Origin: a virus
Virus record (IMG/VR): IMGVR_UViG_3300042691_008394
Location: 1 to 25,687 of that record
DNA: 25,687 nucleotides
Direction: 5' to 3' (one strand)
Positions 6,248 through 25,487 of the stretch are shown here, piece by piece; positions within the stretch are counted from its first letter, which is position 1; each line of letters opens with the position of its first letter. The notes beneath the pieces were generated by a model that ran no database searches, was not told where the DNA came from, and saw only the letters and a program-made list of their open reading frames with translations. The position numbers and the translations under genes are program-made.

Positions 6248-8188
6248 CTACTTAGTAATATCTACTATTTCGCATACCCCAGCAACGCAAGAAAGTTCCT
6301 GTGTTCCAGTGGTTCCATCTTCTTTTTCATATATTGAAAGCATTTCCCATTGAATATTAGAAGGAGATTTCTTTACCCATTCTTCATATTCATCTTTAGA
6401 AATTTCTTGATATGGAGCCTGCTTATAAGTATGCTCACTTGCTGGTAAGAAAGACACACCACCAATTGAATCAAAGTTATCAAATACCCAAGCACCTACT
6501 CTTAGCCATTCATCTTCGTGAACATTGATCGTAACGCTAGGGTTATGCTCAGTCCAATGAGTTCTATAAATCTTCCACATCTCTAGATGATCTATGGCTG
6601 TTAAATCTTTTGTTACAGTTGCATTCTTTGGAGCCTTTTGAGGAAAATAAAACACTGTTGTTTCATCAGGCTTCATTACATCTGGTTCATTTGGAACTCC
6701 TGAATCTTTTAAGAATTGTGTTAAAGGATCATTGTTTGAACCACGAACACTTCTAACGTAGTATTCTGAATACCACGGATGAATTCCGCTAGACACCCCG
6801 ACCAGTTGACTTACAGTGCCAGAAGGCTTAACACAAGTAATTGATACAGAAGGGTTAATGTTTAATTTCTTTGCTTCGTGATCATTAACTCTAACTGATT
6901 CTAATCTCATGTCAGTCAACAACTGCTCTAATGCTTTTCCTGCTGTTGAAGTAATCTTGTTACCATAAATTCCAGTTAAGGAAACTCCTAGTAATCTTTC
7001 TTCTTCACAATTATCTTTCCATGTTTTACGAAGATACTTAAAGTTAGTCAATGTTGATTGCCATGTTCCAAGTATTGTAGCAAGTTTAACCTTTTCCATT
7101 AAGTCTTCTCTTGTATCTTCTGCAGAAATGACTACCTCTGTTAAATTACAAAATTCATTTGGACGCAAGATGATTTCTCCACATGGATTTGTTCCAGAGA
7201 CAAGTGATGCATCTCTTCTTCCAAAAGATTCTACGTGTTTACGAACTGAGTCAATGTTGTAGATTCCTCTTTCGCCAGACTTTGATTCGTATAGGTTTCT
7301 CCATTCACGTAAGAATTGTGCAGTATTTGGTTTTGCGTTGTATACGGCAGAATTGTTTGCTAAAGATCTTTGAGGTTGAGTTTCCCACCAAGATCCACTC
7401 TTTGCTTTTGCCATTTCAAAATCATCAAGATTAGAAAGACTGATTAGAGCACTGCGGCGTACTCCTCCTACTACAACTACCTCTCCAACTTTACACATTA
7501 AGTCATGTGCCTCAATTGGCTTTAATCTGCGACCTGCTGCATTTTTAAAAGTATCTGTTGTAAATGTAAATAATGCACTAAGAGGTCCTGGGCCAGAAGC
7601 ACGTCCACCAAAAGTTTTTAATCTTGCACCTGATGGGCGAACCTTTGACATATCCCATTGAGGAACTTGACCTTGTGACAATAAAGCAATTAATTCTTTA
7701 AACGCTTTTGCCCATCCTAACTTAGAGTCTTCTACGACAATAGTTGTTGCAGTTTGATTAAATGATTCTGCTATGACTGGAAGGGAATCAACATATTTTG
7801 ATTCAACACTAAATCCAACTCCTGTTCCGTTCATCAATACATACATTGCTTCATCAAATGCACGTAGACTATCTACTGCAATGAAAGAACAGTTATAGGC
7901 TGCAATATGATCACGCTCTAATGCTGGACCTGCAGTCATCAATGCTCTCATTGAAGGCATAATTCTGTGATTTAAAATTGCATCTTTTACTTCGTCAAAA
8001 ATCTTAGCATTTGGGCTATAGCCATAGTTTAATACCAAGTGGTCCTTCATAAAGTTTATATATCGATCAACCGTTTCTACCCAGGTTTCTCTTCTATTTT
8101 TTTCTTCTATCCACCTTGCATATCTTGAGATATGAATAAAGTTTTTATATGGATCTGTTATGGATCCGTTTTCGTTAATAAATGACAT
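6248..8188 (-). CDS. nrdJ: Class II (adenosylcobalamin-dependent) ribonucleotide reductase, RTPR-like
   Basis: A 646-residue monomeric-type class II reductase that converts ribonucleotides to deoxyribonucleotides for phage DNA synthesis, using a B12 cofactor to make the thiyl radical. The layout matches the Lactobacillus leichmannii enzyme: Cys100 (in AYNCSF) and Cys347 (in EFCNLTEV) as the reducing pair, NPCGEI at 334-339 with thiyl Cys336 and Glu338, KPSGT at 454-458 in the phosphate-binding loop, and a C-terminal CVAGVC (Cys634 and Cys639) to relay electrons. The spacing Cys336 to Cys347 and the C-terminal Cys spacing agree with that family. All key residues are present, so it is probably active. 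It is shorter than the roughly 740-residue bacterial enzyme. I use ATG 8188, 12 nt after AGGAG; an in-frame TTG at 8200 abuts the AGGAG and is unlikely. The gene has its own consensus-like promoter. Confidence 0.95.
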   Translation of the reverse strand: MSFINENGSITDPYKNFIHISRYARWIEEKNRRETWVETVDRYINFMKDHLVLNYGYSPNAKIFDEVKDAILNHRIMPSMRALMTAGPALERDHIAAYNCSFIAVDSLRAFDEAMYVLMNGTGVGFSVESKYVDSLPVIAESFNQTATTIVVEDSKLGWAKAFKELIALLSQGQVPQWDMSKVRPSGARLKTFGGRASGPGPLSALFTFTTDTFKNAAGRRLKPIEAHDLMCKVGEVVVVGGVRRSALISLSNLDDFEMAKAKSGSWWETQPQRSLANNSAVYNAKPNTAQFLREWRNLYESKSGERGIYNIDSVRKHVESFGRRDASLVSGTNPCGEIILRPNEFCNLTEVVISAEDTREDLMEKVKLATILGTWQSTLTNFKYLRKTWKDNCEEERLLGVSLTGIYGNKITSTAGKALEQLLTDMRLESVRVNDHEAKKLNINPSVSITCVKPSGTVSQLVGVSSGIHPWYSEYYVRSVRGSNNDPLTQFLKDSGVPNEPDVMKPDETTVFYFPQKAPKNATVTKDLTAIDHLEMWKIYRTHWTEHNPSVTINVHEDEWLRVGAWVFDNFDSIGGVSFLPASEHTYKQAPYQEISKDEYEEWVKKSPSNIQWEMLSIYEKEDGTTGTQELSCVAGVCEIVDITK

Positions 8189-8220
8189 AAATAAATACAA
8201 CTCCTAGTTTTTTGATTTTA

Positions 8221-8591: not shown

Positions 8592-9101
8592 ATGAAGAAA
8601 GTATTATTAGCATTAATGGTATTTATTATTGTTGGAACGTATATTAATCGACTGGATAGATCGTATATTCAATACCCCGCAGAACCGTTAGTGGTCGTCC
8701 CAGAAGGACAGACCACTTCAAGTGTTTTAGGGGCTGTAAAGGCCGCTAGAGAGGCTTCTAGCACTACTGCAGCACGTTCTAAGGCTAGATTCGAAGATCC
8801 TAAATCAGACAAGGCTATTGCTGCATATCAAGAGTATTTGAAAGACATAGTTCCAGATCAAGAAGAATCATGTTATTTTAAGATTATTGATAAAGAAAGC
8901 GATTGGAATCCTCTTGCTCAAAATCCTAAATCTACAGCATTTGGAATAGGTCAATTCTTAAATAGCACCTGGGGATTGATAGATTCTGAAAAGACTAAAA
9001 ATCCATATGATCAAATTGATGCAATGGTTGTATATGTTAAATTAATTTATGGTGATGGATGCAACGCTTGGCACTTTAGAAGCCAGCGTGGTTGGTATTA
9101 A
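8592..9101 (+). CDS. Membrane-anchored or secreted lysozyme/transglycosylase-like protein
   Basis: A 169-residue protein with an N-terminal Met-Lys-Lys and hydrophobic segment (residues 4-18), a low-complexity Ala/Ser/Thr linker (about 45-66) and a C-terminal lysozyme-like fold (about 92-169). The domain shows IIDKESDWNP with candidate catalytic Glu102, then AFGIGQFLNSTW (116-127), the signature of SLT-type transglycosylase domains that cleave peptidoglycan glycan strands. Cys94 and Cys157 could form a disulfide outside the membrane. In a phage this suits an endolysin exported by its own signal or signal-anchor, or a peptidoglycan-processing protein. It has a strong promoter and ribosome site, and its stop codon overlaps that of the convergent glycosyltransferase gene. 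The holin-like gene is about 3.6 kb away on the other strand, so the two are not one lysis operon. Confidence 0.8.
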   Translation: MKKVLLALMVFIIVGTYINRLDRSYIQYPAEPLVVVPEGQTTSSVLGAVKAAREASSTTAARSKARFEDPKSDKAIAAYQEYLKDIVPDQEESCYFKIIDKESDWNPLAQNPKSTAFGIGQFLNSTWGLIDSEKTKNPYDQIDAMVVYVKLIYGDGCNAWHFRSQRGWY

Positions 9102-11189: not shown

Positions 11190-11975
11190 CTAATTTGCTG
11201 AGGCGATGTAAGAGTCTAAAACATTGGATGTTGCAGTTCCACCAGGTGCATAGATTATGCCTGTGTTTGGACCTTTGTTTGCTGATGGTTCGTTCCTATC
11301 TAAAATAGTAGAATGATAGGCTCCACCATCTTGAATTCCATAAACTTTTATATTTGCTTGATTGGTAACTACTCTAATACCTGCAAAGTTATCATTTGAA
11401 TCATTCAAAGTTGTTCTAACTTCAACATCTTGAACTGTGCTAACTGTTCCACCAACTGCCTTGATAACTCTTACGTAAAATCTATATCTTGTTCCAGTTG
11501 AATAGTTTGGACATTGATCACATGTTTCTCCACATACGTCATGACATCCATGTGTGGCATGGCAATAGTGTCCCCAACATCCCATTTGCCTACAGTTGCA
11601 ATTATAATATGAACTAACGTATTGTTCAGAGTTTGAAGTATAGTAAGGAATTGCACCCCACCAATCTCCAGGACCAGAAACCCAAAATGCTAAGCCAGCA
11701 CCGCTACCAAATGTTGATATTTGAGCAGTGATGTCTGCGTCTACAATGTCATAATTAATTGATATTGGATAACTTGTTGCAGATGTTGGAGTATAGGCTT
11801 GAGATGCATTTGATTGCCAATCGCCCTGTATGTTTCTCCAGGGTCCAAAGAAATCAAAGTTATCAGAAAATGATCTAACTATATCTTTTTCTTGAAAACC
11901 TTTTCTTGTAACAGAATTAGATATTGTCTTTTTTTTACTTAATGGTTTATTATTTATTCTACTTGGTTTGGCCAT
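11190..11975 (-). CDS. Virion protein with Cys/His-rich insertion in a LamG-like domain
   Basis: A 261-residue protein. After a basic N-terminal tail (residues 1-30), residues about 36-215 look like one beta-sandwich (LamG/concanavalin-like) domain: FGPWRNIQGDWQ, then GLAFWVSGPGDWWGAIPYY and later RYRFYVRVIK and DSNDNFAGIRVVT. Between the WW strand and the RYRF strand, residues 126-155 form an inserted loop with eight cysteines and four histidines in 30 positions. This is unlike the rest of the protein, which has no other cysteine. Disulfide or metal stabilisation of a receptor-contact loop is a reasonable inference. The last 40 residues are Gly/Asn/Thr-rich. AAGGAA precedes the ATG. Confidence 0.75.
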   Translation of the reverse strand: MAKPSRINNKPLSKKKTISNSVTRKGFQEKDIVRSFSDNFDFFGPWRNIQGDWQSNASQAYTPTSATSYPISINYDIVDADITAQISTFGSGAGLAFWVSGPGDWWGAIPYYTSNSEQYVSSYYNCNCRQMGCWGHYCHATHGCHDVCGETCDQCPNYSTGTRYRFYVRVIKAVGGTVSTVQDVEVRTTLNDSNDNFAGIRVVTNQANIKVYGIQDGGAYHSTILDRNEPSANKGPNTGIIYAPGGTATSNVLDSYIASAN

Positions 11976-16110: not shown

Positions 16111-16833
16111 CTAATTATAGGACTTTTTATGCCAGAATTGACGTTTATATGACCTATTGATAAAACTTAGAATTTTAAATACCGCCTTTTGTTTTTTGCC
16201 TTCCTCAAATTCTAAAATATCTGATTCCCAAGAATCTCTTTTAAAAGGAAAGATCTGACATATCGGGGTTCCTGCTGGAACTATTGTTCTCTCTCCTTCA
16301 AAGTTTAATATTTGAAATGGAAAATGAACTGAGTCTGGAAATGTATCAGTATCTACTACCCCTGTAAAAGTTCTAAATGGTAAATCATGTCTATTTAATG
16401 GATGAGTATAAAGACAACTATATCCAGGTGGTGTTTTTATATGCCAGTCAAATAACCATTTAGAGGCATATTTTTCTTCTTTATGTTCTGTTGGTAACAT
16501 AAAGGTCTGATCTATATTGTGTCCTTCAACTATTTTAATTATTGGCTGTAACCATCTAACTGTTATTTCTCCATTGACCTTTTTAAATTCAACGTCTGAT
16601 GATAAAACTGCCATGTAGCCTGTAGTTAAAGCATCTAAAAATGGAACACAACCCTTAAGTGTGCTATTGCTTACACTGGCAACTGGATTTGGATGCATGC
16701 CAAAATCTTTTTCATTATTAACATATAATGGTGCATTCTTATACCAATTAGGAATTGTATTTCTTGATGGAATTGGTGCTGGTAAAAATGACTCTAAGCC
16801 TTTAGCCATAGGCTGAAATTCAATTTTTTGCAT
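16111..16833 (-). CDS. DUF6065-like protein of unknown function
   Basis: A 240-residue protein of a type I associate with DUF6065, found in marine and freshwater phages without known function. Diagnostic stretches are IPNWYKNAP (27-35), STLKGCVPFLDALTTGY (57-73), WLFDWHIKTPPGYSCLYTHP (about 125-145), GVVDTDTFPD and GTPICQIFPFKR. The His/Asp/Trp-rich core could be a cupin-like fold, but I cannot show metal ligands. I use ATG 16833, just after the upstream stop; an in-frame GTG at 16899 would overlap the upstream gene by 58 nt. The leader is A-rich with no clear Shine-Dalgarno site. Position two genes after the halogenase hints at a shared process, without proof. Confidence 0.7.
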   Translation of the reverse strand: MQKIEFQPMAKGLESFLPAPIPSRNTIPNWYKNAPLYVNNEKDFGMHPNPVASVSNSTLKGCVPFLDALTTGYMAVLSSDVEFKKVNGEITVRWLQPIIKIVEGHNIDQTFMLPTEHKEEKYASKWLFDWHIKTPPGYSCLYTHPLNRHDLPFRTFTGVVDTDTFPDSVHFPFQILNFEGERTIVPAGTPICQIFPFKRDSWESDILEFEEGKKQKAVFKILSFINRSYKRQFWHKKSYN

Positions 16834-16841
16834 TATTTTTT

Positions 16842-17354
16842 TTATTCTACTTGTTGTGAAAATGTGTATTCTTCGTAATTTCGTGTCATTGGGTTCCAAA
16901 CTTGAACCTTGCCACCTTCATACAAAGGAACTTTCCATTGCCATGTTGTATGATCAAAGTAGAACATATCTCTTGAAAGATCTCCAAATTCAACCTTAGG
17001 AAGGAATTTGTTAATTGAAGGCTCCCACACAACTCCTACTTGAAAGTCGTCCATATTTCCAATTGGTTCTCCGTTAACATATGCTTTAATTTCTAACTGT
17101 GTTGGAATGCCCAATGAAGAGTTTTGTAAGTTTCTAATTGTTTGTGTAAATTCTAGCCAATAGAAGTGATCTGAATCTTGTGGAAGAATTCCACCGTTTA
17201 GATCTGTTCCTTCTTTGTATGTTGTAAAGTTAACTACTTGATTTGTTAATTTATAAACTTTTGCAAAATGTCTTAATTGTGGATCAATTTGAGTTTCTGT
17301 TGCATAAATAGGTGTTTCTGTATTTTCTACACCTGGATTAAATTCAATAGTCAT
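16842..17354 (-). CDS. Unknown protein between halogenase and DUF6065-like gene
   Basis: A 170-residue acidic protein with many aromatics and no cysteine. I do not recognise a family. Visible stretches are FAKVYKLTNQVVNFTTY, SDHFYWLEFTQTIRNLQ, PTQLEIKAYVNGEP, FQVGVVWEPSINKFLPK and TWQWKVPLYEGGKVQVWN, suggesting a compact beta-rich fold. No signal peptide or membrane segment. AAGGGAG lies a few bases before the ATG. It starts 12 bp after the halogenase and ends 8 bp before the DUF6065-like start, so the three are probably expressed together. A virion or accessory partner role is possible. Confidence 0.65.
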   Translation of the reverse strand: MTIEFNPGVENTETPIYATETQIDPQLRHFAKVYKLTNQVVNFTTYKEGTDLNGGILPQDSDHFYWLEFTQTIRNLQNSSLGIPTQLEIKAYVNGEPIGNMDDFQVGVVWEPSINKFLPKVEFGDLSRDMFYFDHTTWQWKVPLYEGGKVQVWNPMTRNYEEYTFSQQVE

Positions 17355-17366
17355 GTTAACTCCCTT

Positions 17367-19007
17367 TTAAAATTGTATCATATCTTCTTTATTGGTATCT
17401 TCATCTTTTTTATAGAAGGTGTGATATAGGTATTCTGATAATAATGGAGAATTCATGGCATTTCTTTGCCATTTAGCCTTTCTTTCTTCCCACAACCTGC
17501 AATATTCGTTAGTTTTTTCTAATATGCTAAGATCTGGCTCTTCATATTGAACCTGAATTGCTCTTTGCTCATTAACCATGTTTACGTTCATACCTGTTGC
17601 TATATATGTAATTCCAGCATTTCCTATAGGATGACCCCATCCATCTAGGTATCTAATTGACATATCATAAAATGAAGATGACTTATCTATGTATGGGCTT
17701 GTCATTTCGTCTGCTTTATCAGCAAAATGCTTTCTGTTTATAGCCTTCCAGTATTCAGTATCGTCTCTGTGGCTTAATGCGTAGTGTAAGGCAACAAACT
17801 TTGCAAATCCTCTAAACATAACTTGAGTACTTGCGTTATACATATCTCTATCAAATTCAGATATTTCGTTTCCACGATCAAGAGTGTCAATAAGTTTAAA
17901 CAAGAATTCGTGAACAGTATACAAGCCGTTGCTTTCTAATGGTTCAATAAATCCTGCTGATAGTCCTATTGCTACTACGTTTTTAACAAATGTTCTATTA
18001 TGTATTCCTACACGGAATTTAATATCTCTAAATTCTAAGGAATCAATTTCTTCTTTTGTTCTTGGTATAACCATTTTGTCAGACATCAAGTAATTTTTAA
18101 ATTGCTCTAATGCTTCTTCTGGTGTAGCAAATTTATCTGAATAAACATAGCCAGCACCCAATCTTTCCCATGAAGGTATGTTCCAACACCATCCGTTTTC
18201 AATTGCTGTTGAGTTAGTAAAGCCTTCTAATTCTTTATCTTTGTTTCTATAAGGAATTCTTGTTGCCCAGGCTCTATTGTTTGGTAGCATTTCTGCCATA
18301 GAGTCAAATGGTTCCTCTAGTGCACCAGCAAGTAGTAGGCTCTTGAATCCTGTGCAGTCTACAAATAGATCTGCAGTAATATTATTTCCATTGTCTAATG
18401 TTAGATAGTCAATGCCATCCTCATTAGTTTTTATATCTACAACTTTTCCTTCTATGTGCATTACACCTTTTGGCTTACAGTAATTTTCTTTTAGCCAATA
18501 CCCAAACTTGTCTGCATCAAAATGATAAGCAACATCATTTCCAGGGTTAAAGTTGTCAAAGTCTTTAAAATAATTTAAATTAAATCTATTGTTTTCAAAT
18601 AATGCTGCTGCTGGAAACAAGCATCTAACAAAATCTTCTTTTGTTGTTTCTGGATAAAAGAATTTTTTAAAATGCCAGTGATTAAATGATGGAGTTCCTG
18701 GTCCATCAAGTAATGGCTTTCCAAATGGATAATGAAATCCTCCATCGTCTTTTTTATAAAAATCTGTAAATTTAATACTTAGTTTTAATGAAGCGTCTGT
18801 TGCTGGAAAAAAATCTTTTTCATCTAATCCGATAAATCTAGTCCATCTACGAATTCCACCTAGTGTGCTTTCGCCTACCCCTACTGTTTTAATATCTGAG
18901 GGCTCAATAAGGCTAATGTTGTGATTTGGAAATTTTCTTATAAGGGTAGCCGCTGTCATCCATCCAGCAGATCCGCCACCAACTATAACTATCTTTTTTA
19001 CCTTCAT
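17367..19007 (-). CDS. Flavin-dependent tryptophan-halogenase-like enzyme
   Basis: A 546-residue protein with the full set of flavin-dependent halogenase landmarks. These enzymes use FADH2, oxygen and halide to form hypohalous acid that halogenates an aromatic substrate. Seen here are the FAD-binding VGGGSAGW (9-16), TVGVGESTLGG (41-51), Lys75 in DASLKLSIKF at the place of the catalytic lysine, VDCTGF (216-221), WCWNIP (273-278) matching the WxWxIP signature, and GLSAGFIEPLESNGLY (348-363) with Glu358 at the catalytic Glu position. Length is normal for the family, so it is likely active given a reductase partner, which is not in the window. The true substrate may be a small molecule, peptide or protein. 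The gene follows the Gly-rich array by 20 bp and carries a TGATATACT box upstream. Confidence 0.92.
   Translation of the reverse strand: MKVKKIVIVGGGSAGWMTAATLIRKFPNHNISLIEPSDIKTVGVGESTLGGIRRWTRFIGLDEKDFFPATDASLKLSIKFTDFYKKDDGGFHYPFGKPLLDGPGTPSFNHWHFKKFFYPETTKEDFVRCLFPAAALFENNRFNLNYFKDFDNFNPGNDVAYHFDADKFGYWLKENYCKPKGVMHIEGKVVDIKTNEDGIDYLTLDNGNNITADLFVDCTGFKSLLLAGALEEPFDSMAEMLPNNRAWATRIPYRNKDKELEGFTNSTAIENGWCWNIPSWERLGAGYVYSDKFATPEEALEQFKNYLMSDKMVIPRTKEEIDSLEFRDIKFRVGIHNRTFVKNVVAIGLSAGFIEPLESNGLYTVHEFLFKLIDTLDRGNEISEFDRDMYNASTQVMFRGFAKFVALHYALSHRDDTEYWKAINRKHFADKADEMTSPYIDKSSSFYDMSIRYLDGWGHPIGNAGITYIATGMNVNMVNEQRAIQVQYEEPDLSILEKTNEYCRLWEERKAKWQRNAMNSPLLSEYLYHTFYKKDEDTNKEDMIQF
17372..17380 (-). 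promoter_or_regulatory. Extended -10 inside the halogenase 3' end
   Basis: TG-A-TACAAT on the minus strand, made from the last Met-Ile-Gln-Phe codons of the halogenase, 17 nt before ATG 17354. It is followed by TTTTAAAAGGGAG. No -35 match. Coding constraint could explain it alone, but the following sequence matches other virion-gene leaders. Confidence 0.42.
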
Positions 19008-19027
19008 GAAATCTCTTTTCTTATGTG

Positions 19028-20038
19028 TTAACCTAGTATATCATGTGGATTAATTTCACGCAAGTAGTAGGTATCATCAAAATCTTCATTAGATAGTTGA
19101 ATTATAAATCTTCCATGCTGGGGCATATAAATATTTTTATACATATTTTTTACAGCATCTCTAGATCCACTTACAATGCTAAATTTTGATTTATCTATTG
19201 CTTTCTTATATATGTCTTGTCTACTAAAGTCTCCAAATTTTGTTATACCCGCAATTATATGATCGTTCAAATTATTGTTTGGCTGTTCTCCATATTCTTC
19301 TTTATGAACTATGTGTCCAGATCCACCACTTCCTCCTACATCTTTTACTCTAAAATCTGTATTTGATTTTCCACCTACCCAGCCTCCACCACCTCCACCA
19401 TTGTTTCCAGAATTTAAGCCATTTGATCCAATTAAAGAACTATTTTCAATATCTTGAGTAGATGGAGATGAATTGTTTGCTCCTGTTCCTACCCAACCAC
19501 CACCGTTTCCAGCCTTTGATTTTTTAACATCATTTCCACCACCTTTACCTCCACCACCTCCTGCAATCAATAAAACATTTTCTCTTATTACTGGACAGTT
19601 ATCATCTGTCCATTCATTTTTTCCATAATATTCTGTATTTATAAATAAACCACTTAGTCCTCCACCTTGTCCACCCATCATATATCCAGATCCTCCACCA
19701 CCGTGAGTATTTTTATTTCTAAAGTATCCTGCTTGTCCAGCAGTTATTGTATAGTGTATATCTTTTTTAAAATTAACTAATGATTTTGTATACCCACCGA
19801 TTCCTGAAGCATCTTTCATTTTATCTACACCATATGCTGCACCGTCAGCACCCCATAACTCAACCCATGCTATAAAATCTTCATCTGCTATAAATGTAAA
19901 AGATCCATATCCAAGATCTTCGTTATCTCCGTATGATATATCAAAATTACCACCACCAAAACTTAATAATAAATCATTGTTAGATATTGTTTTATTTAAA
20001 ACGTGGCCGTTAGGATTTGTGATTGAAAAATTAATCAT
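19028..20038 (-). CDS. Glycine-rich adhesin-like protein 1 (divergent member)
   Basis: A 336-residue member of a five-gene tandem family and the last in transcription order. It shares the family order: an N-terminal beta region ending FIAWVELWGADGA, the block HYTITAGQAG, a GGxGGGLSGLF segment, LLIAGGGGGKG, then a poly-glycine stretch with GGGGGGWVGG. It differs in having few histidines, more Lys/Asp/Asn and a distinct C-terminus (about 240-336) ending FIIQLSNEDFDDTYYLREI. Poly-glycine with spaced aromatic residues recalls the polyglycine-II sandwich of T-even gp38 tail adhesins, which bind host receptors. AGGAG precedes the ATG. Receptor binding is inference from composition and family resemblance. 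Confidence 0.72.
   Translation of the reverse strand: MINFSITNPNGHVLNKTISNNDLLLSFGGGNFDISYGDNEDLGYGSFTFIADEDFIAWVELWGADGAAYGVDKMKDASGIGGYTKSLVNFKKDIHYTITAGQAGYFRNKNTHGGGGSGYMMGGQGGGLSGLFINTEYYGKNEWTDDNCPVIRENVLLIAGGGGGKGGGNDVKKSKAGNGGGWVGTGANNSSPSTQDIENSSLIGSNGLNSGNNGGGGGGWVGGKSNTDFRVKDVGGSGGSGHIVHKEEYGEQPNNNLNDHIIAGITKFGDFSRQDIYKKAIDKSKFSIVSGSRDAVKNMYKNIYMPQHGRFIIQLSNEDFDDTYYLREINPHDILG
19035..19063 (-). promoter_or_regulatory. Candidate promoter of the halogenase
   Basis: TG-A-TATACT (box 19040-19035) on the minus strand, with TTGCGT (19063-19058) a 17-bp spacer upstream as a partial -35. A start near 19028 gives a leader of about 20 nt containing AAGAGA before ATG 19007. It lies inside the 3' end of the preceding gene. 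Confidence 0.5.
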
Positions 20039-20046
20039 TTTTACTC

Positions 20047-21195
20047 CTAATATGATTGAGACCAGGCGTTATTATCTCCAGGTGCTGTGTGAGTTGGAAA
20101 AACATATTCTGATTTATTCATTATTTCATGTGCTAAAGTTATTACAACTTTTCCATGTTTCTGACCTTCTTTATCGCTTTGACCAACTTCTGATCCTCTT
20201 CCACCTAATCCTGCTAACCCACCGTCACCTTGTGCTAGTGGATTTCTATCATTTGCTGGCATTGGTGTTTGAGTTCCATGATCACCAGGTGCTCTTAAGG
20301 TATGACCTGTAATTATATATTGTGCCTTATCGTTATTTGCTTGTGTGGCAATGTTTGATGGATAAGCATAATGTCCTGATCCACCTCCACCACCATTATG
20401 ATGATTTGATGTATGACCTCCGCCACCACCGCCATACCAACCACCTCCACCTCCACCTAGCCAAGAAGTGTTTGATCCAGAGTGTCCTCCATGTAAAGCC
20501 TGTCCACCTTGTCCACCGTTGTATCCACCACCGCCACCACCTGTTTGTCCACCTCCACCAGAGTTGTGACCACTTCTTCCATCCCAACCACCACCTCCAC
20601 CACCTGCTCCGTGATGTGATTGAGTATGATAACCTTTTCCACCTCCACCTCCTGCAACCAACAATGCTTGTGATTGTGTTACTGGTGTAGTGGTATGTGC
20701 CCATGAACTTTTACCAAAATGAGTAGAGCCCATAAATAAACCTGAAAGACCTCCGCCAGAACCACCTGACGAATGCCCTCTTCCACCACCACCGTGTGTT
20801 GCTACGTTATCAAAATTTCCTCCTTGACCAACGACAATTGTGTATGGAGTTTGTGCTTTAAATTGAACTAGTGCTTGTGTAAATCCTCCACCACCAGCAG
20901 CATTGTCTCCACTTCTATGTTGTCCTGCACCACCAGCACCCCACATTTGAACCCATGCTAAAAAGTCATTTTGTGGTTTTAATACATGTGATCCAAAATC
21001 AAACCACCATTCACCGCTTGAATTATAGTCTCTATAAAAAGATCCACCACCAACATTAAAGATTTCACCTTTTCTTTTTGTTTTTGAATCTGAAAAATGT
21101 GTTGATGGAGTAGCAGTGTATGTAAACAATGATCCATTTGGTCTTGTTAATTCATAAGTAACTTGTTTTTCATTTTTAGATCTAATATTAGTCAT
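20047..21195 (-). CDS. Glycine/histidine-rich adhesin-like protein 2 (type A)
   Basis: A 382-residue protein. Residues 1-95 form a non-repetitive, beta-rich head with GEIFNVGGGSFY, FDFGSHVLKPQNDFLAWVQM and WGAGGAG. After it, YTIVVGQGG, THGGGGRGHSSGG, GLSGLFMG and LLVAGGGGGKGYH lead into a long poly-glycine region with GGGGGGWYGGGGGGHTSN and HHNGGGGGSGHYA. It is closest to protein 4 (22342-23526), with which it shares a perfect 101-bp DNA block. The composition matches polyglycine-II adhesin tips such as those of T-even gp38, and the His clusters may bind metal. A TAATG junction couples it to protein 3. Confidence 0.74.
   Translation of the reverse strand: MTNIRSKNEKQVTYELTRPNGSLFTYTATPSTHFSDSKTKRKGEIFNVGGGSFYRDYNSSGEWWFDFGSHVLKPQNDFLAWVQMWGAGGAGQHRSGDNAAGGGGFTQALVQFKAQTPYTIVVGQGGNFDNVATHGGGGRGHSSGGSGGGLSGLFMGSTHFGKSSWAHTTTPVTQSQALLVAGGGGGKGYHTQSHHGAGGGGGGWDGRSGHNSGGGGQTGGGGGGYNGGQGGQALHGGHSGSNTSWLGGGGGGWYGGGGGGHTSNHHNGGGGGSGHYAYPSNIATQANNDKAQYIITGHTLRAPGDHGTQTPMPANDRNPLAQGDGGLAGLGGRGSEVGQSDKEGQKHGKVVITLAHEIMNKSEYVFPTHTAPGDNNAWSQSY
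20393..20493. repeat. 101-bp perfect direct repeat, copy 1
   Basis: Identical base for base to 22694-22794, inside the poly-glycine region of protein 2. It encodes the stretch from HGGHSGSNTSW through GWYGG to HTSNHHNGG. Identity at synonymous positions implies recent duplication or gene conversion. Confidence 0.92.
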
Positions 21196-22355
21196 TAGTC
21201 AGTACCTACCCATCTATTTGCAGAAATTACTACTCTTCCAGGATACCCCGAATGATCCCATCCTCCACCTAATCCAGTTCTTCCAAAAATTTGTTCTCCA
21301 CTTGATTGACCTTGAGATCCTCCACCTTGACCTGCACCCATCCAATCTGAGTCTGCATGGTATCCAGGGTTAATATTATGATTTTGATGCGTTGTTTTAC
21401 CATTAACTGAATATCCATCTGTTACTAAATCTGGATACTTTGTTTTAATCCAATTATTTGGATACCCACCTGTTGAATGTAAATCTAGCAAATGTCCTGA
21501 ACCTCCACCGCCACCATTATGATGATTACTATGATGTGTTCCACCAGCACCACCAAACCATCCACCTCCGCCGCCTCCAGAGTTTCCTCCGTCTCCTGCG
21601 TGTCCACCGTGTAGTGAGTAGCCTGCTTGTGATCCGTGTCCCCAGTTTCCACCACCACCTGTTTGTGAGCCACCACCAGCATTGTGTCCACTAGTTCCAT
21701 TTGTTCCACCACCTGCTGCTCCAGTTCCATGATGACCAGTACTATGATGTCCTGAGCCTCCGCCACCGCCAGCAATAATTAAAGCATTTTGTCTTCCAAT
21801 TGATCTGAATGAAGTATGGTTAGCACCATGCCCATGACCTGGACCACCATGATTTCCAAATGTATTAAAAAATATACCAGATAGGCCACCTCCTGGACCA
21901 CCGTGAGTTGCTCCACCTCCACCGTTACCAAAAGATCCAGATTGTCCATAATTGTCACGAACGTCAGCACCACTATGTCTATGTGTAATGTGACCTGGTG
22001 ATTGACCAACTAAAACTGTATAAGGAATATCTTTTAAAAATTTAACTGTAGCACTAGAGTATCCTCCTGAACCAGCAACTGCGTCTCCAGTATCATAACC
22101 TCTAGCACCCCCACCTGCACCCCACACTTTTGCTGTTCCATAAAAAGATCTATAAGGAATTATTGTCCATATTCCATATTTTCTTCCAAAATCAAAATGT
22201 CCTGGTTCATTGTGATCAAACTGATGTGTTGTTTGACCAAAGCCCTCTGCAAATATTTTTCCTTGATTTTTATCTTTCCAATAGACATCTTTATGCTCTG
22301 CTAAGGCTTCATTAAAAATATGTGCTATTGGCTGATTTTCTTTAATTCCTGTCAT
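21195..22355 (-). CDS. Glycine/histidine-rich adhesin-like protein 3 (type B)
   Basis: A 386-residue protein most like protein 5 (23526-24626). Both start with a segment containing IFNEA or LFNTA, then W-x-x-I-P, a KVWGAGGGA or KMWGAGGGS motif, and end with NWIKTKYPDLV or YWIKEKYPNIV followed by HQNHN. The middle contains HRHSGADVRD, GGGLSGIFFN, ALIIAGGGGGSGHHS and GGGGGGWFGGAGGTHHSN. The first codons overlap the last 14 nt of protein 4, and AAGGAAA lies before the ATG. It is probably a subunit of the same receptor-binding assembly as its neighbours or an alternative version of it. Confidence 0.74.
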   Translation of the reverse strand: MTGIKENQPIAHIFNEALAEHKDVYWKDKNQGKIFAEGFGQTTHQFDHNEPGHFDFGRKYGIWTIIPYRSFYGTAKVWGAGGGARGYDTGDAVAGSGGYSSATVKFLKDIPYTVLVGQSPGHITHRHSGADVRDNYGQSGSFGNGGGGATHGGPGGGLSGIFFNTFGNHGGPGHGHGANHTSFRSIGRQNALIIAGGGGGSGHHSTGHHGTGAAGGGTNGTSGHNAGGGSQTGGGGNWGHGSQAGYSLHGGHAGDGGNSGGGGGGWFGGAGGTHHSNHHNGGGGGSGHLLDLHSTGGYPNNWIKTKYPDLVTDGYSVNGKTTHQNHNINPGYHADSDWMGAGQGGGSQGQSSGEQIFGRTGLGGGWDHSGYPGRVVISANRWVGTD

Positions 22356-23526
22356 ATCTAGTGTTTCCTTGATTAAATGATAATGGCATTGGATTCTGTT
22401 CTATTGTATTATAAGCATTCTTTAAATACCCTGGAGCAAAATTTATTACAACTTTTCCATGTCTTGAGCCGTGTGTCATATCATTTCCAGCGGCACCTCT
22501 TCCAACATGATTTCCATTTCTTGCTTTGTTGTGAGCATAGTCGTTTAGCCAATTTGCTGGTTTATCTGATCTAAAATTATGATAAGATGCTGAAGATAGT
22601 GTATGTGCTGTAACTAAGTATTTTGATAATTCGCTATTTGGAAAAGATCCACCTTCTGAAGGCATAGCATGATGACCTGATCCACCAGATCCGCCATTAT
22701 GATGATTTGATGTATGACCTCCGCCACCACCGCCATACCAACCACCTCCACCTCCACCTAGCCAAGAAGTGTTTGATCCAGAGTGTCCTCCATGAAATCC
22801 GTGACCAGACCCACCACGACCTCCGTTATTATATCCACCAGATCCACCATTAAATTGAGTTGCTCCAGAAACGTTATGTGCACTTCTTCCATACCAGCCA
22901 CCGCCACCGCCACCGCTACCATGATGTGCAGATCCATGATGGCCTTTTCCTCCACCACCACCTGCAACTAACAATGCCTGATCTCTTCTAACTGGAGTAT
23001 TGTCTGTGTGACCCCAATCTCCTCTGCCATTATGATCTACGTTCATAAATAGACCTGTAAGACCGCCACCAGAACCACCTGATGAGTGACCTCTTCCACC
23101 ACCACCATGTGTTGATGCATTATCACAATGTCCACCTTCTCCAACAACTATTGTGTATGGAGTGTTTGCTTTAAATTTTACTAGACCTCTTGTAAATCCT
23201 CCTCCACCACCATAATTTCCACCTGATGGGTCTGCTCCACCGCCACCTGCACCCCATAAGGAAACCCATGCAGTAAAATCATTTTTTGGATATAAAACAT
23301 GTGAGCCGTAATCTAATTGATATTCAGTTTCAGTACTAAATATACTTCCACCGCCAACATTAAACATTTCTCCCTTAATTGCGGTATATGAATGTTCATA
23401 ACTATTTGTATTATCTACAATTTGATCTTTACTTAAAGCACCACTTGGAGTTTTTAAATAATAATAAGCATAATTATCTAATGATACGTCTGTATCAATT
23501 TTTCTTTTTGAACTTGAATTAGTCAT
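22342..23526 (-). CDS. Glycine/histidine-rich adhesin-like protein 4 (type A)
   Basis: A 394-residue protein and close relative of protein 2. The N-terminal head (about 1-100) has GEMFNVGGGSIF, LDYGSHVLYPKNDFTAWVSL and WGAGGGG. The central blocks YTIVVGEGG, THGGGGRGHSSGG and LLVAGGGGGKGHH align with protein 2, and the poly-glycine region shares the 101-bp identical DNA segment. Heads and C-termini differ more than the centre, with the tail ending GKVVINFAPGYLK. The pattern of conserved scaffold and variable ends fits receptor-binding proteins under diversifying selection. ATG is coupled to the stop of protein 5 by a TAATG junction. Confidence 0.74.
   Translation of the reverse strand: MTNSSSKRKIDTDVSLDNYAYYYLKTPSGALSKDQIVDNTNSYEHSYTAIKGEMFNVGGGSIFSTETEYQLDYGSHVLYPKNDFTAWVSLWGAGGGGADPSGGNYGGGGGFTRGLVKFKANTPYTIVVGEGGHCDNASTHGGGGRGHSSGGSGGGLTGLFMNVDHNGRGDWGHTDNTPVRRDQALLVAGGGGGKGHHGSAHHGSGGGGGGWYGRSAHNVSGATQFNGGSGGYNNGGRGGSGHGFHGGHSGSNTSWLGGGGGGWYGGGGGGHTSNHHNGGSGGSGHHAMPSEGGSFPNSELSKYLVTAHTLSSASYHNFRSDKPANWLNDYAHNKARNGNHVGRGAAGNDMTHGSRHGKVVINFAPGYLKNAYNTIEQNPMPLSFNQGNTRYDRN
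22694..22794. repeat. 101-bp perfect direct repeat, copy 2
   Basis: The second identical copy of the block at 20393-20493, about 2.3 kb away and in the same orientation, inside protein 4. Flanking DNA on both sides diverges at once, so the edges are sharp. Recombination between the copies would delete protein 3 and fuse proteins 2 and 4. Confidence 0.92.
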
Positions 23527-24626
23527 TATGTGGCCACTGTCCTTATAATCATTCTACCATTACCGCCACCATGAGAACTTCCAGTTCTGCCACTACCTGT
23601 TCCCCATCCTTGCGAACTATTTGCGTCAACATCGGTTGATGCTGCTGGTGCTGGATTATGGTTTTGATGTTGTCCTGGAGCAATTTCTAATGTTGAATTT
23701 CTAACAATATTTGGATATTTTTCTTTAATCCAATAATTCCAATGTTCTGGAGTTGAGTATAAATCTAATGCGTGACCTGCTCCACCTCCACCACCGTTAT
23801 GATGAGAGCCAGTTCCTCTATGTGTTCCTCCAGCACCACCCCAGTATCCACCACCTCCACCACCTGTATAAGAAGATGCTCCACCATGTCCACCATGCAT
23901 TCTATATCCACCAGAACCATATGATCCATCACGCCAAGCGTGTGCTGCGTCATATTGATGTGCGTGATTTTGTGCATGTCCATGATGTCCATGTTGTCCA
24001 CCACCGCCTGCACCTTGTCCATGATTTGATGTTCCGTGATGTCCTTGTCCACCACCTCCACCTGCTACTAATATAGCATTAGACTGATTTGGTCCTTCAA
24101 AAGTTGATGCTATTCCGTGGCTAAATTGTGAACCACTCATTCCTTCTAGTCCATGAGTGTTATAAAATATTGCAGACATTCCACCACCACCGCCAGCATT
24201 GTGTCCGCCGTTTCCACCACCACCAAATCCACCAGATTCCCATGGGTTGGTTCTATTTCCATTTGAGTCATGATTGTGATAAGAATAACTTCCACCTTGT
24301 CCTACCCAAAGTGTATAAGGTTTATCTTTATAAAATGTAACTAATGATCTTGCATGACCTCCACCACCTGAAGCACCAGAATCATTATGTGATCCACCGC
24401 CTGCACCCCACATTTTTACTTCACCAGTAAAAGTTTGTTCTGGTATTAAAACCCATTCTCCAAAATTTGTTCCTGGCTGTGTATAGTGTTGACCATTTCC
24501 TGATCCTTTGTCAAATATTGTTTTATAATGACCAGCACGATCTAAATCAATAGATTCATATGATGTAAATGCTGTATTAAATAATGTTGCTAACCTGTTA
24601 GTATTTTTTGTTCTGGTTAGGGTCAC
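23526..24626 (-). CDS. Glycine/histidine-rich adhesin-like protein 5 (type B, first of the array)
   Basis: A 366-residue protein that opens the array in transcription order. It starts at GTG 24626, with AAGGGGGG upstream, and has no competing in-frame ATG nearby. It has the type B head (LFNTAF, then WVLIPEQTFTGEVKMWGAGG), a Gly-rich centre and the most histidine-dense stretch of the family (GQHGHHGHAQNHAHQYDAAH). The motif GGGGGGYWGGAGGTHRGTGS follows, then YWIKEKYPNIV and HQNHNPAPA. It ends GGGNGRMIIRTVAT. Poly-glycine with aromatic and His residues again suggests a polyglycine-II type adhesin tip, possibly metal-binding. The upstream neighbour ends 15 bp before. Confidence 0.74.
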   Translation of the reverse strand: MTLTRTKNTNRLATLFNTAFTSYESIDLDRAGHYKTIFDKGSGNGQHYTQPGTNFGEWVLIPEQTFTGEVKMWGAGGGSHNDSGASGGGGHARSLVTFYKDKPYTLWVGQGGSYSYHNHDSNGNRTNPWESGGFGGGGNGGHNAGGGGGMSAIFYNTHGLEGMSGSQFSHGIASTFEGPNQSNAILVAGGGGGQGHHGTSNHGQGAGGGGQHGHHGHAQNHAHQYDAAHAWRDGSYGSGGYRMHGGHGGASSYTGGGGGGYWGGAGGTHRGTGSHHNGGGGGAGHALDLYSTPEHWNYWIKEKYPNIVRNSTLEIAPGQHQNHNPAPAASTDVDANSSQGWGTGSGRTGSSHGGGNGRMIIRTVAT

Positions 24627-24641
24627 TTATAAGTACCCCCC

Positions 24642-25487
24642 TTACTTCAGTAACGTTCCGAATGCAGTAAAGTAGATACCAGCATGGGAAGCCCTAACAA
24701 CTAGTGCGTCACCTTGATCTAATGTGTAGCCCATGGTCATGCTGTAGGTTTCACCTGGATCTAACGAAACTCTATTTGCAATTATTGATTTATCTGGAGG
24801 AGATGTTTTTGAATCTCCGCTTTTTACTATATATGCATAGAAGTAGCATGAGTGTGTTAGTGTGTTAGAAACTGCTAGTGTTGAAATAATCGCTTGTTCT
24901 GATGTTCCAACTGTAAATACTGTGTTGGCTTTTTGAATTGCTACTGCACCAGGTGCTGTTCCTGTAATAACTGATGCTGATGATTGATCTGCTCCAAGAG
25001 CAATGTATCTAAAAGCACTTGAAGATACTGAATCAAAGATTACCCAATCTCCATCATATTGTGCATCGTTGATGTCAACTGTTATTAAGTCTCCTGCTGC
25101 TGCATTGTGATTACCATCTGTAATTAAAGTAACAATGCCACCTGTTTTTTGTTTATTTAAAACTCTTTTTCCTTGAGCATTTTCATATGAGTAAACATAT
25201 GCTGCTGTTTGTGCTGCATCTGTAATATTTGCATTTGTTAGTGGAACTGTAAAGTATGTTGTTGGGTTAGTGTCATCGTTTTTGCCAAGTTTTGCAACTA
25301 CACGGCGGCGATTCATGATTGATTGATCTGTTGACCAAACTTCTACACGATCTCCTACTGTTAAACCGTGAGGTGTTGTTGTTTCAAAGTATGCTTGGTT
25401 TGTTGTCAAACCTCTTGTTTTAACTGGAAGTCTTTCATATAATCCAGAGGTAACTTGTCCTAAGACCTTATAATTGGAAATTGCCAT
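24642..25487 (-). CDS. Multi-module beta-rich virion protein
   Basis: A 281-residue protein built from repeated small modules. Residues about 32-90 (TTTPHGLTVGDRVEVW) and 115-178 (NHNAAAGDLITVDINDAQYD) look like two copies of one fold; the latter resembles residues 11-75 of the 204-residue protein at 11985-12599. Residues about 190-281 (STLAVSNTLTHSCYFYAYIV to YFTAFG) resemble the stand-alone 101-residue protein at 12985-13290. No enzymatic motif, signal peptide or membrane segment. The likely role is a tail-tip or fibre-attachment protein, with the C-terminal sandwich as an interaction unit. GGGAG lies 7 nt before the ATG and the start is 1 bp after the stop of the preceding gene. Confidence 0.72.
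   Translation of the reverse strand: MAISNYKVLGQVTSGLYERLPVKTRGLTTNQAYFETTTPHGLTVGDRVEVWSTDQSIMNRRRVVAKLGKNDDTNPTTYFTVPLTNANITDAAQTAAYVYSYENAQGKRVLNKQKTGGIVTLITDGNHNAAAGDLITVDINDAQYDGDWVIFDSVSSSAFRYIALGADQSSASVITGTAPGAVAIQKANTVFTVGTSEQAIISTLAVSNTLTHSCYFYAYIVKSGDSKTSPPDKSIIANRVSLDPGETYSMTMGYTLDQGDALVVRASHAGIYFTAFGTLLK

Follow-up and report, generated by a model that had tools for sequence, protein, structure and literature searches.

Flavin-dependent halogenases (FDHs) in many aquatic phages are paired with tail proteins rich in His, Trp and Tyr, which suggests self-halogenation of host-binding proteins. The DNA stretch analyzed here (the window) is an IMG/VR virus record of 25,687 bases from a phage that was never isolated. 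Judged by sequence, it holds an example of a phage cassette that recurs: a VirX1-type FDH gene immediately preceded by between one and five genes for Gly-rich tail-fibre proteins. The enzyme is intact by its motifs, and the association was observed in gene order, in co-occurrence and in amino acid composition. The best reading, to which we give a probability of about 50%, is an FDH-adhesin cassette whose enzyme halogenates His, Tyr and Trp residues of the adhesin. The more pointed proposal that phages use such a dedicated cassette to halogenate their own receptor-binding fibre proteins, mainly at conserved His residues, is put forward tentatively, at odds somewhat short of even.

The FDH gene of the window (17367-19007, minus strand) encodes a 546-aa VirX1-type protein. 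Its ORF matched the PF04820 profile with E = 4.6e-101 and 339 bits, the curated cut-off being 21, and phrog_2928 with E = 5e-141. The nearest solved structure was VirX1 of cyanophage Syn10 (PDB 6qgm; 5e-99, next best 5.8e-72), which belongs to the same PF04820 fold family, has the same catalytic motifs and is 38% identical to the window enzyme. The first-pass annotation had described an FDH with a full set of catalytic landmarks, and all of these were indeed found: GGGSAGW from residue 10 (GxGxxG at residues 10-16), Lys75, WCWNIP at 273-278 and EPLES at 355-359. The catalytic-type Lys75 (codon 18783-18785, minus strand) takes the position of Lys79 of PrnA/VirX1, and Glu358 in EPLES (codon 17934-17936, minus strand) that of Glu346 of PrnA. 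Both were invariant in a comparison of 30 phage FDHs, as were W273, W275, P278 and E355; the Ile of WxWxIP was the exception among the landmarks. The window FDH is intact by sequence and is predicted to have halogenating activity.

The FAD site, the catalytic Lys and Glu and the WxWxIP motif are shared with the free-tryptophan halogenases PrnA, RebH, PyrH and Thal. Single-sequence alignments of the window FDH with these enzymes, however, stopped at about residue 425-437 whereas the VirX1 alignment was longer, and the window FDH is not surrounded by a metabolite cluster. Profile alignments to RebH/PrnA ran beyond residue 425-437. Halogenases of the MibH type, from RiPP pathways, act on a ribosomal polypeptide, as the window FDH would if the hypothesis holds. 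In contrast to these systems, no leader-peptide precursor or RiPP enzymes were noticed in the window, and the FDH partner there is a large, putative Gly-rich fibre protein.

Directly ahead of the FDH, and co-directional with it, are five Gly-rich ORFs, with gaps that range from -14 to +20 nt. All five products passed the cut-off for PF12810, the ALK/LTK glycine-rich domain. Gly-rich protein 1 (23526-24626, minus strand; 366 aa, about 11% His, PF12810 at 1.6e-6) carries the sequence GGGGGGYWGG, protein 2 (22342-23526, minus strand; 394 aa, about 8% His, 3e-11) GGGGGGWYGG and protein 3 (21195-22355, minus strand; 386 aa, about 10% His, 2.3e-7) GGGGGGWFGG. GGGGGGWYGG recurs in protein 4 (20047-21195, minus strand; 382 aa, about 8% His, 1.7e-10), while protein 5 (19028-20038, minus strand; 336 aa, 2.6e-17) has GGGGGGWVGG and about 2% His in its Gly-rich part. 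The run of five co-directional Gly-rich genes ahead of the halogenase that had been noted before thus stands, with tight packing on one strand and a common domain family. The predicted structure of protein 2 (pLDDT 73) resembled ALK/LTK structures in a Foldseek comparison (E 3.8e-6, probability 1.00, 18% identity), with a low TM-score of 0.33 and an rmsd of 10. A PDB profile search with the Gly-rich alignment gave no match; of the two structure searches, that by fold was the one that picked out ALK/LTK. In a PHROG search the window Gly-rich proteins matched the unannotated phrog_1589/7388 only, and tblastn of one of them against phage isolates returned no match. Compared with the ALK/LTK domain and with phage fibre proteins of the PF21722 and phrog_863 type, the window proteins are far richer in His and are encoded beside a halogenase.

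The same gene run continues upstream, after a spacing of 15 nt, with a tail-region protein (24642-25487, minus strand) that had no family match in Pfam or PHROG. On the other side, 12 nt downstream of the FDH, lies a gene for a 170-aa protein (16842-17354, minus strand), also without Pfam or PHROG match, and then a phrog_7084 (DUF6065-like) gene (16111-16899, minus strand; 3.6e-45). phrog_7084 genes were found directly downstream of the FDH in 50 of 61 VirX1-type loci, including that of Syn10 VirX1. In these loci their overlap with the FDH gene had a median of about 28 nt, and the products of phrog_7084 genes (window 16111-16899; L308:13577-14365) are possible enzyme partners.

Linkage of FDH genes to Gly-rich tail genes was seen repeatedly, far more often than expected by chance. 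Immediately ahead of the FDH, Syn10, S-CREM1, S-WAM1 and S-RIM44 have genes for Gly-rich proteins of 252-272 aa with conserved His residues; these proteins match PF21722 and the tail family phrog_863 (4.8e-67). The window lineage shares with Syn10 a context of Gly/His-rich, putative tail-fibre genes upstream and the phrog_7084 gene downstream, but has Gly-rich proteins of the PF12810 type, a single FDH and no recognizable adjoining 2OG oxygenase. Other phage FDHs have other kinds of Gly-rich genes nearby. Around VirX1-type FDHs nearly all Gly-rich genes lay on the FDH strand and no more than 5 kb ahead of the enzyme gene: 164 were found in this interval, all co-directional and at about 5 per 10 kb, against 0-0.2 per 10 kb elsewhere. 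At least one upstream Gly-rich gene was present in 57 of the 58 VirX1-type loci whose upstream DNA extended for 4 kb or more, and in 30 of 50 loci with window-type FDHs; the remaining 20, without a Gly-rich neighbor, count against the main reading. So do the His-poor Gly-rich neighbors at some FDH loci (L054-L058 and L059-L079).

The link also held when the search started from the fibre protein. Viral-contig loci chosen by fibre alignment had an FDH wherever this could be tested (65 of 65), 13 further loci being set aside where the contig ended within about 1 kb of the fibre gene. A tblastn search with the Syn10 fibre protein matched 20 of 50,697 phage records, and each of these 20 had a VirX1-type FDH. 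Among S-RIM44 records five had both the fibre gene and a VirX1-type FDH, while the four lacking such an FDH also lacked a fibre match; in one of the latter (KX349297) the equivalent site was occupied by a 294-aa protein that is not Gly-rich and by small genes. The fibre gene and the FDH are gained or lost together. A survey of whether the two gene types co-occur had been suggested in the first-pass annotation, which took a lack of co-occurrence as an argument against adhesin halogenation, and with a link this recurrent (57/58, 65/65 and 20/20) that argument falls away. The survey used mechanically called ORFs, fragmentary records and loci related by descent. Since the VirX1-linked fibre proteins are largely one homologous family, independent origins are few and there were fewer events than loci.

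The Gly-rich domains linked to FDHs show a selective enrichment in His, Trp and Tyr, strongest for His. Within 5 kb of an FDH their mean His content was 4.74%, compared to 0.72% in unselected FDH-free contigs (p = 5.5e-27) and 0.56% in those relatives of the window phage that have no FDH. With one value per sequence family, the 18 families with members upstream on the FDH strand exceeded the 99 control families 4.5-fold in His (p = 5e-7), 2.4-fold in Trp (p = 1e-4), 1.7-fold in Tyr (p = 4e-4) and 2.5-fold in Cys (p = 3e-3), whereas Phe was unchanged (0.9-fold). An interim conclusion that Trp is not enriched was discarded because half of the controls behind it had been chosen for the Trp motif; unbiased controls gave enrichment of both Trp and Tyr. 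The emphasis that had initially been placed on Trp is therefore borne out in part, as Trp is enriched but His, not Trp, stands out most.

The His contrast was also seen within genomes. In the window four of the five array proteins had 8-11% His and three other Gly-rich proteins 0-2%, while Gly-rich proteins of FDH-less relatives were nearly all at 0-1.6%; the same within-genome contrast appeared in G019, G024 and G026. When FDH lineages were defined at 60% identity, 12 of 15 had linked proteins with more than 1.5% His, a level reached by 16% of control proteins (binomial p = 6e-8). Seven His positions were 89-100% conserved among 100 VirX1-linked fibre proteins. Two pattern scans for His-His beside poly-Gly were also made. 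Among the matches listed, an FDH was present in 11 of 12 records with more than 3% His in the Gly-rich part and in 3 of 20 below that level (p = 3e-5), leaving out ORFs judged to be out of frame (L697, L715, L723, L727, L868, L893, L898 and L923). Counting the FDH-less L893 and L923 changed the former ratio to 11/14 (p = 3e-4, again among the matches listed). The idea that 2OG oxygenases account for the His-rich domains was not supported: window-type loci with a 2OG neighbor had a lower His content (1.5% vs 3.3%), and a scan of 31 ORFs from the sibling genome gave no Pfam 2OG family.

In the available part of the VirX1 report (PMC8407142), FDHs are described as forming an electrophilic halogenating species that attacks electron-rich rings, and VirX1 as having a large, unusually open and accessible active site that accepts bulky substrates, with a preference for iodide followed by bromide. 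Among the aromatic amino acids, natural halogenated forms are best documented for Tyr, His and Trp according to the portion of PMC8659048 that is available. The same portion mentions sponge skeletons, in which 5-bromohistidine and halotyrosines occur in structural material; these differ from the present case in being of animal rather than viral source, and the enzyme is not identified there. For the phage cassette we infer that the fibre protein is the substrate, and the residues modified, the halide used and the effect on adsorption are inferred with it. Late in infection the FDH would draw on the host for reduced flavin and on the environment for its halide (bromide, iodide or chloride), and would halogenate His imidazoles at the Gly-rich tips of the fibres; Tyr and Trp there are probable further targets. 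Halogenated tips would give the host-contact surface a different chemistry. Speculatively, the substrate may be presented with the help of partner proteins, for instance phrog_7084.

In its strict form the earlier proposal held that the FDH acts specifically on the Trp of the poly-Gly motif GGGGGGWxGG. A Gly6-aromatic motif is present in all five array genes of the window, as had been noted, and together with the 2.4-fold Trp enrichment in FDH-linked families this speaks for it. When viral contigs were scanned for GGGGGGWYGG, 102 stretches were found, and among the matches listed (80 of 102) the motif was encoded in frame in Gly-rich ORFs at 79 of 80. However, 48 of 50 phage records with GGGGGGWYGG had no FDH, the two with an FDH over the cut-off being the window lineage. 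The looser motif Gly5-Trp-Tyr/Phe-Gly-Gly occurred in bacterial and archaeal genomes in at least 119 stretches, in the reading frame at 80 of 80 loci among the matches listed. Furthermore, one array gene of the sibling phage (L002), the counterpart of that for Gly-rich protein 3, encodes GGGGGGYYGG instead, and the VirX1-linked fibre proteins have no common GGGGGGWxGG motif and a mean Trp content of 0.8%. PF12810 genes were present in 2 of 50 FDH records, in the window lineage only. In a set of 29 records that have a related portal gene, PF12810 genes were present in three and an FDH in four; the fourth FDH lies close to a contig end, which may have cut off its upstream genes. The motif is real, but is a trait of paralogous copies and of this domain type generally rather than of halogenase loci. 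It was ruled out as a halogenase signature, and its Trp as the specific target is very improbable. For the purposes suggested earlier, tuning of receptor contact or resistance to proteolysis, no evidence emerged in either direction.

Action of the FDH on a small molecule, such as a host metabolite, pigment, signal or free Trp, is a less probable but serious alternative. The late tail operon would then be merely an insertion hot-spot and fibre and FDH a linked block without mutual action. This would fit the many small aromatics that VirX1 halogenates in vitro; small aromatics are also the only substrates for which activity is reported in the available part of PMC8407142, which counts against fibre halogenation. 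Published guesses of antibiotic protection or host metabolite tuning (PMC2984593, PMC9964418, PMC10452541), the location of the S-B64 FDH outside the tail region and the frequency of 2OG oxygenases as FDH neighbors point the same way. It leaves unexplained, however, why His, Trp and Tyr but not Phe are selectively enriched in the linked proteins, why this enrichment recurs in different Gly-rich families (PF12810 in the window, PF21722 beside VirX1), and why the link is near-obligate in both directions. Sugar- and metal-binding sites often contain His, Trp and Tyr, and the enrichment of these residues could instead reflect glycan or metal binding, a point that also weighs against the main reading. 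If the adhesin uses them to bind a ligand or metal, the FDH could modify a host receptor or surface glycan, for example to block superinfection, and be co-selected with receptor type. The VirX1-linked adhesins are tail-fibre proteins, and cassette replacement at the tail locus fits receptor switching, but a cytoplasmic flavin enzyme would need to reach surface targets, and we consider this explanation unlikely. We know of no halogenated virion peptide, which likewise counts against adhesin halogenation.

In the published virion proteome of S-SZBM1 the products of genes 51-54 were detected, while the Gly-rich SSZBM1_48-50 and the FDH were not listed (PMC9146016). The SSZBM1_48-50 genes (L964:5597-8157) lie directly downstream of the detected genes. 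Their non-detection fits modification, and equally low copy number or poor tryptic coverage with too few peptides. In silico, trypsin coverage of SSZBM1_48 and _49 was 41-53%, and 16 of their 17 usable tryptic peptides contained His, Trp or Tyr. A proteome search blind to halogenation could therefore miss both proteins.

The role of the phage 'tryptophan halogenases' is an open puzzle, and the published ideas are called speculative (PMC2984593). Our searches of the openly available literature turned up no paper that connects phage halogenases with Gly-rich tail proteins; the novelty of the link is provisional because subscription papers lay outside this search. The near-obligate pairing with tail fibres enriched in His, Trp and Tyr points to a concrete protein substrate that is testable on existing isolates. 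If adhesin halogenation is confirmed, VirX1-type enzymes would gain a native substrate and virions a new kind of modification, with phages building host-contact surfaces by halogen chemistry, and these FDHs could serve as tools for halogenating folded proteins.

Further features were observed beside the cassette. In cyanophages FDH genes are followed by extended series of genes for 2OG-Fe(II), JmjC and DUF6445 oxygenases (L308:14576-19547; L513:10628-16118). These genes adjoin the tail-fibre genes, and their products may be further protein-modifying enzymes. Single viral contigs with at least three Trp_halogenase-type genes were L849 (G138), L914 (G143), L694 (G137) and L703 (G128); they had four to six PF04820 matches, some being pieces of one gene, which suggests several specificities within one phage. 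The tail-gene region of the window encodes a 261-aa protein (11190-11975) with a dense Cys/His segment, CNCRQMGCWGHYCHATHGCHDVCGETCDQC, that is metal-binding in appearance. A small lytic-transglycosylase-like ORF (8592-9101) is among the very few plausible plus-strand genes in the otherwise minus-strand structural region. A ribonucleotide reductase gene (6248-8200; phrog_367, 4.8e-187) also lies inside the structural gene region, and its copy in the sibling phage matches the B12-dependent class.
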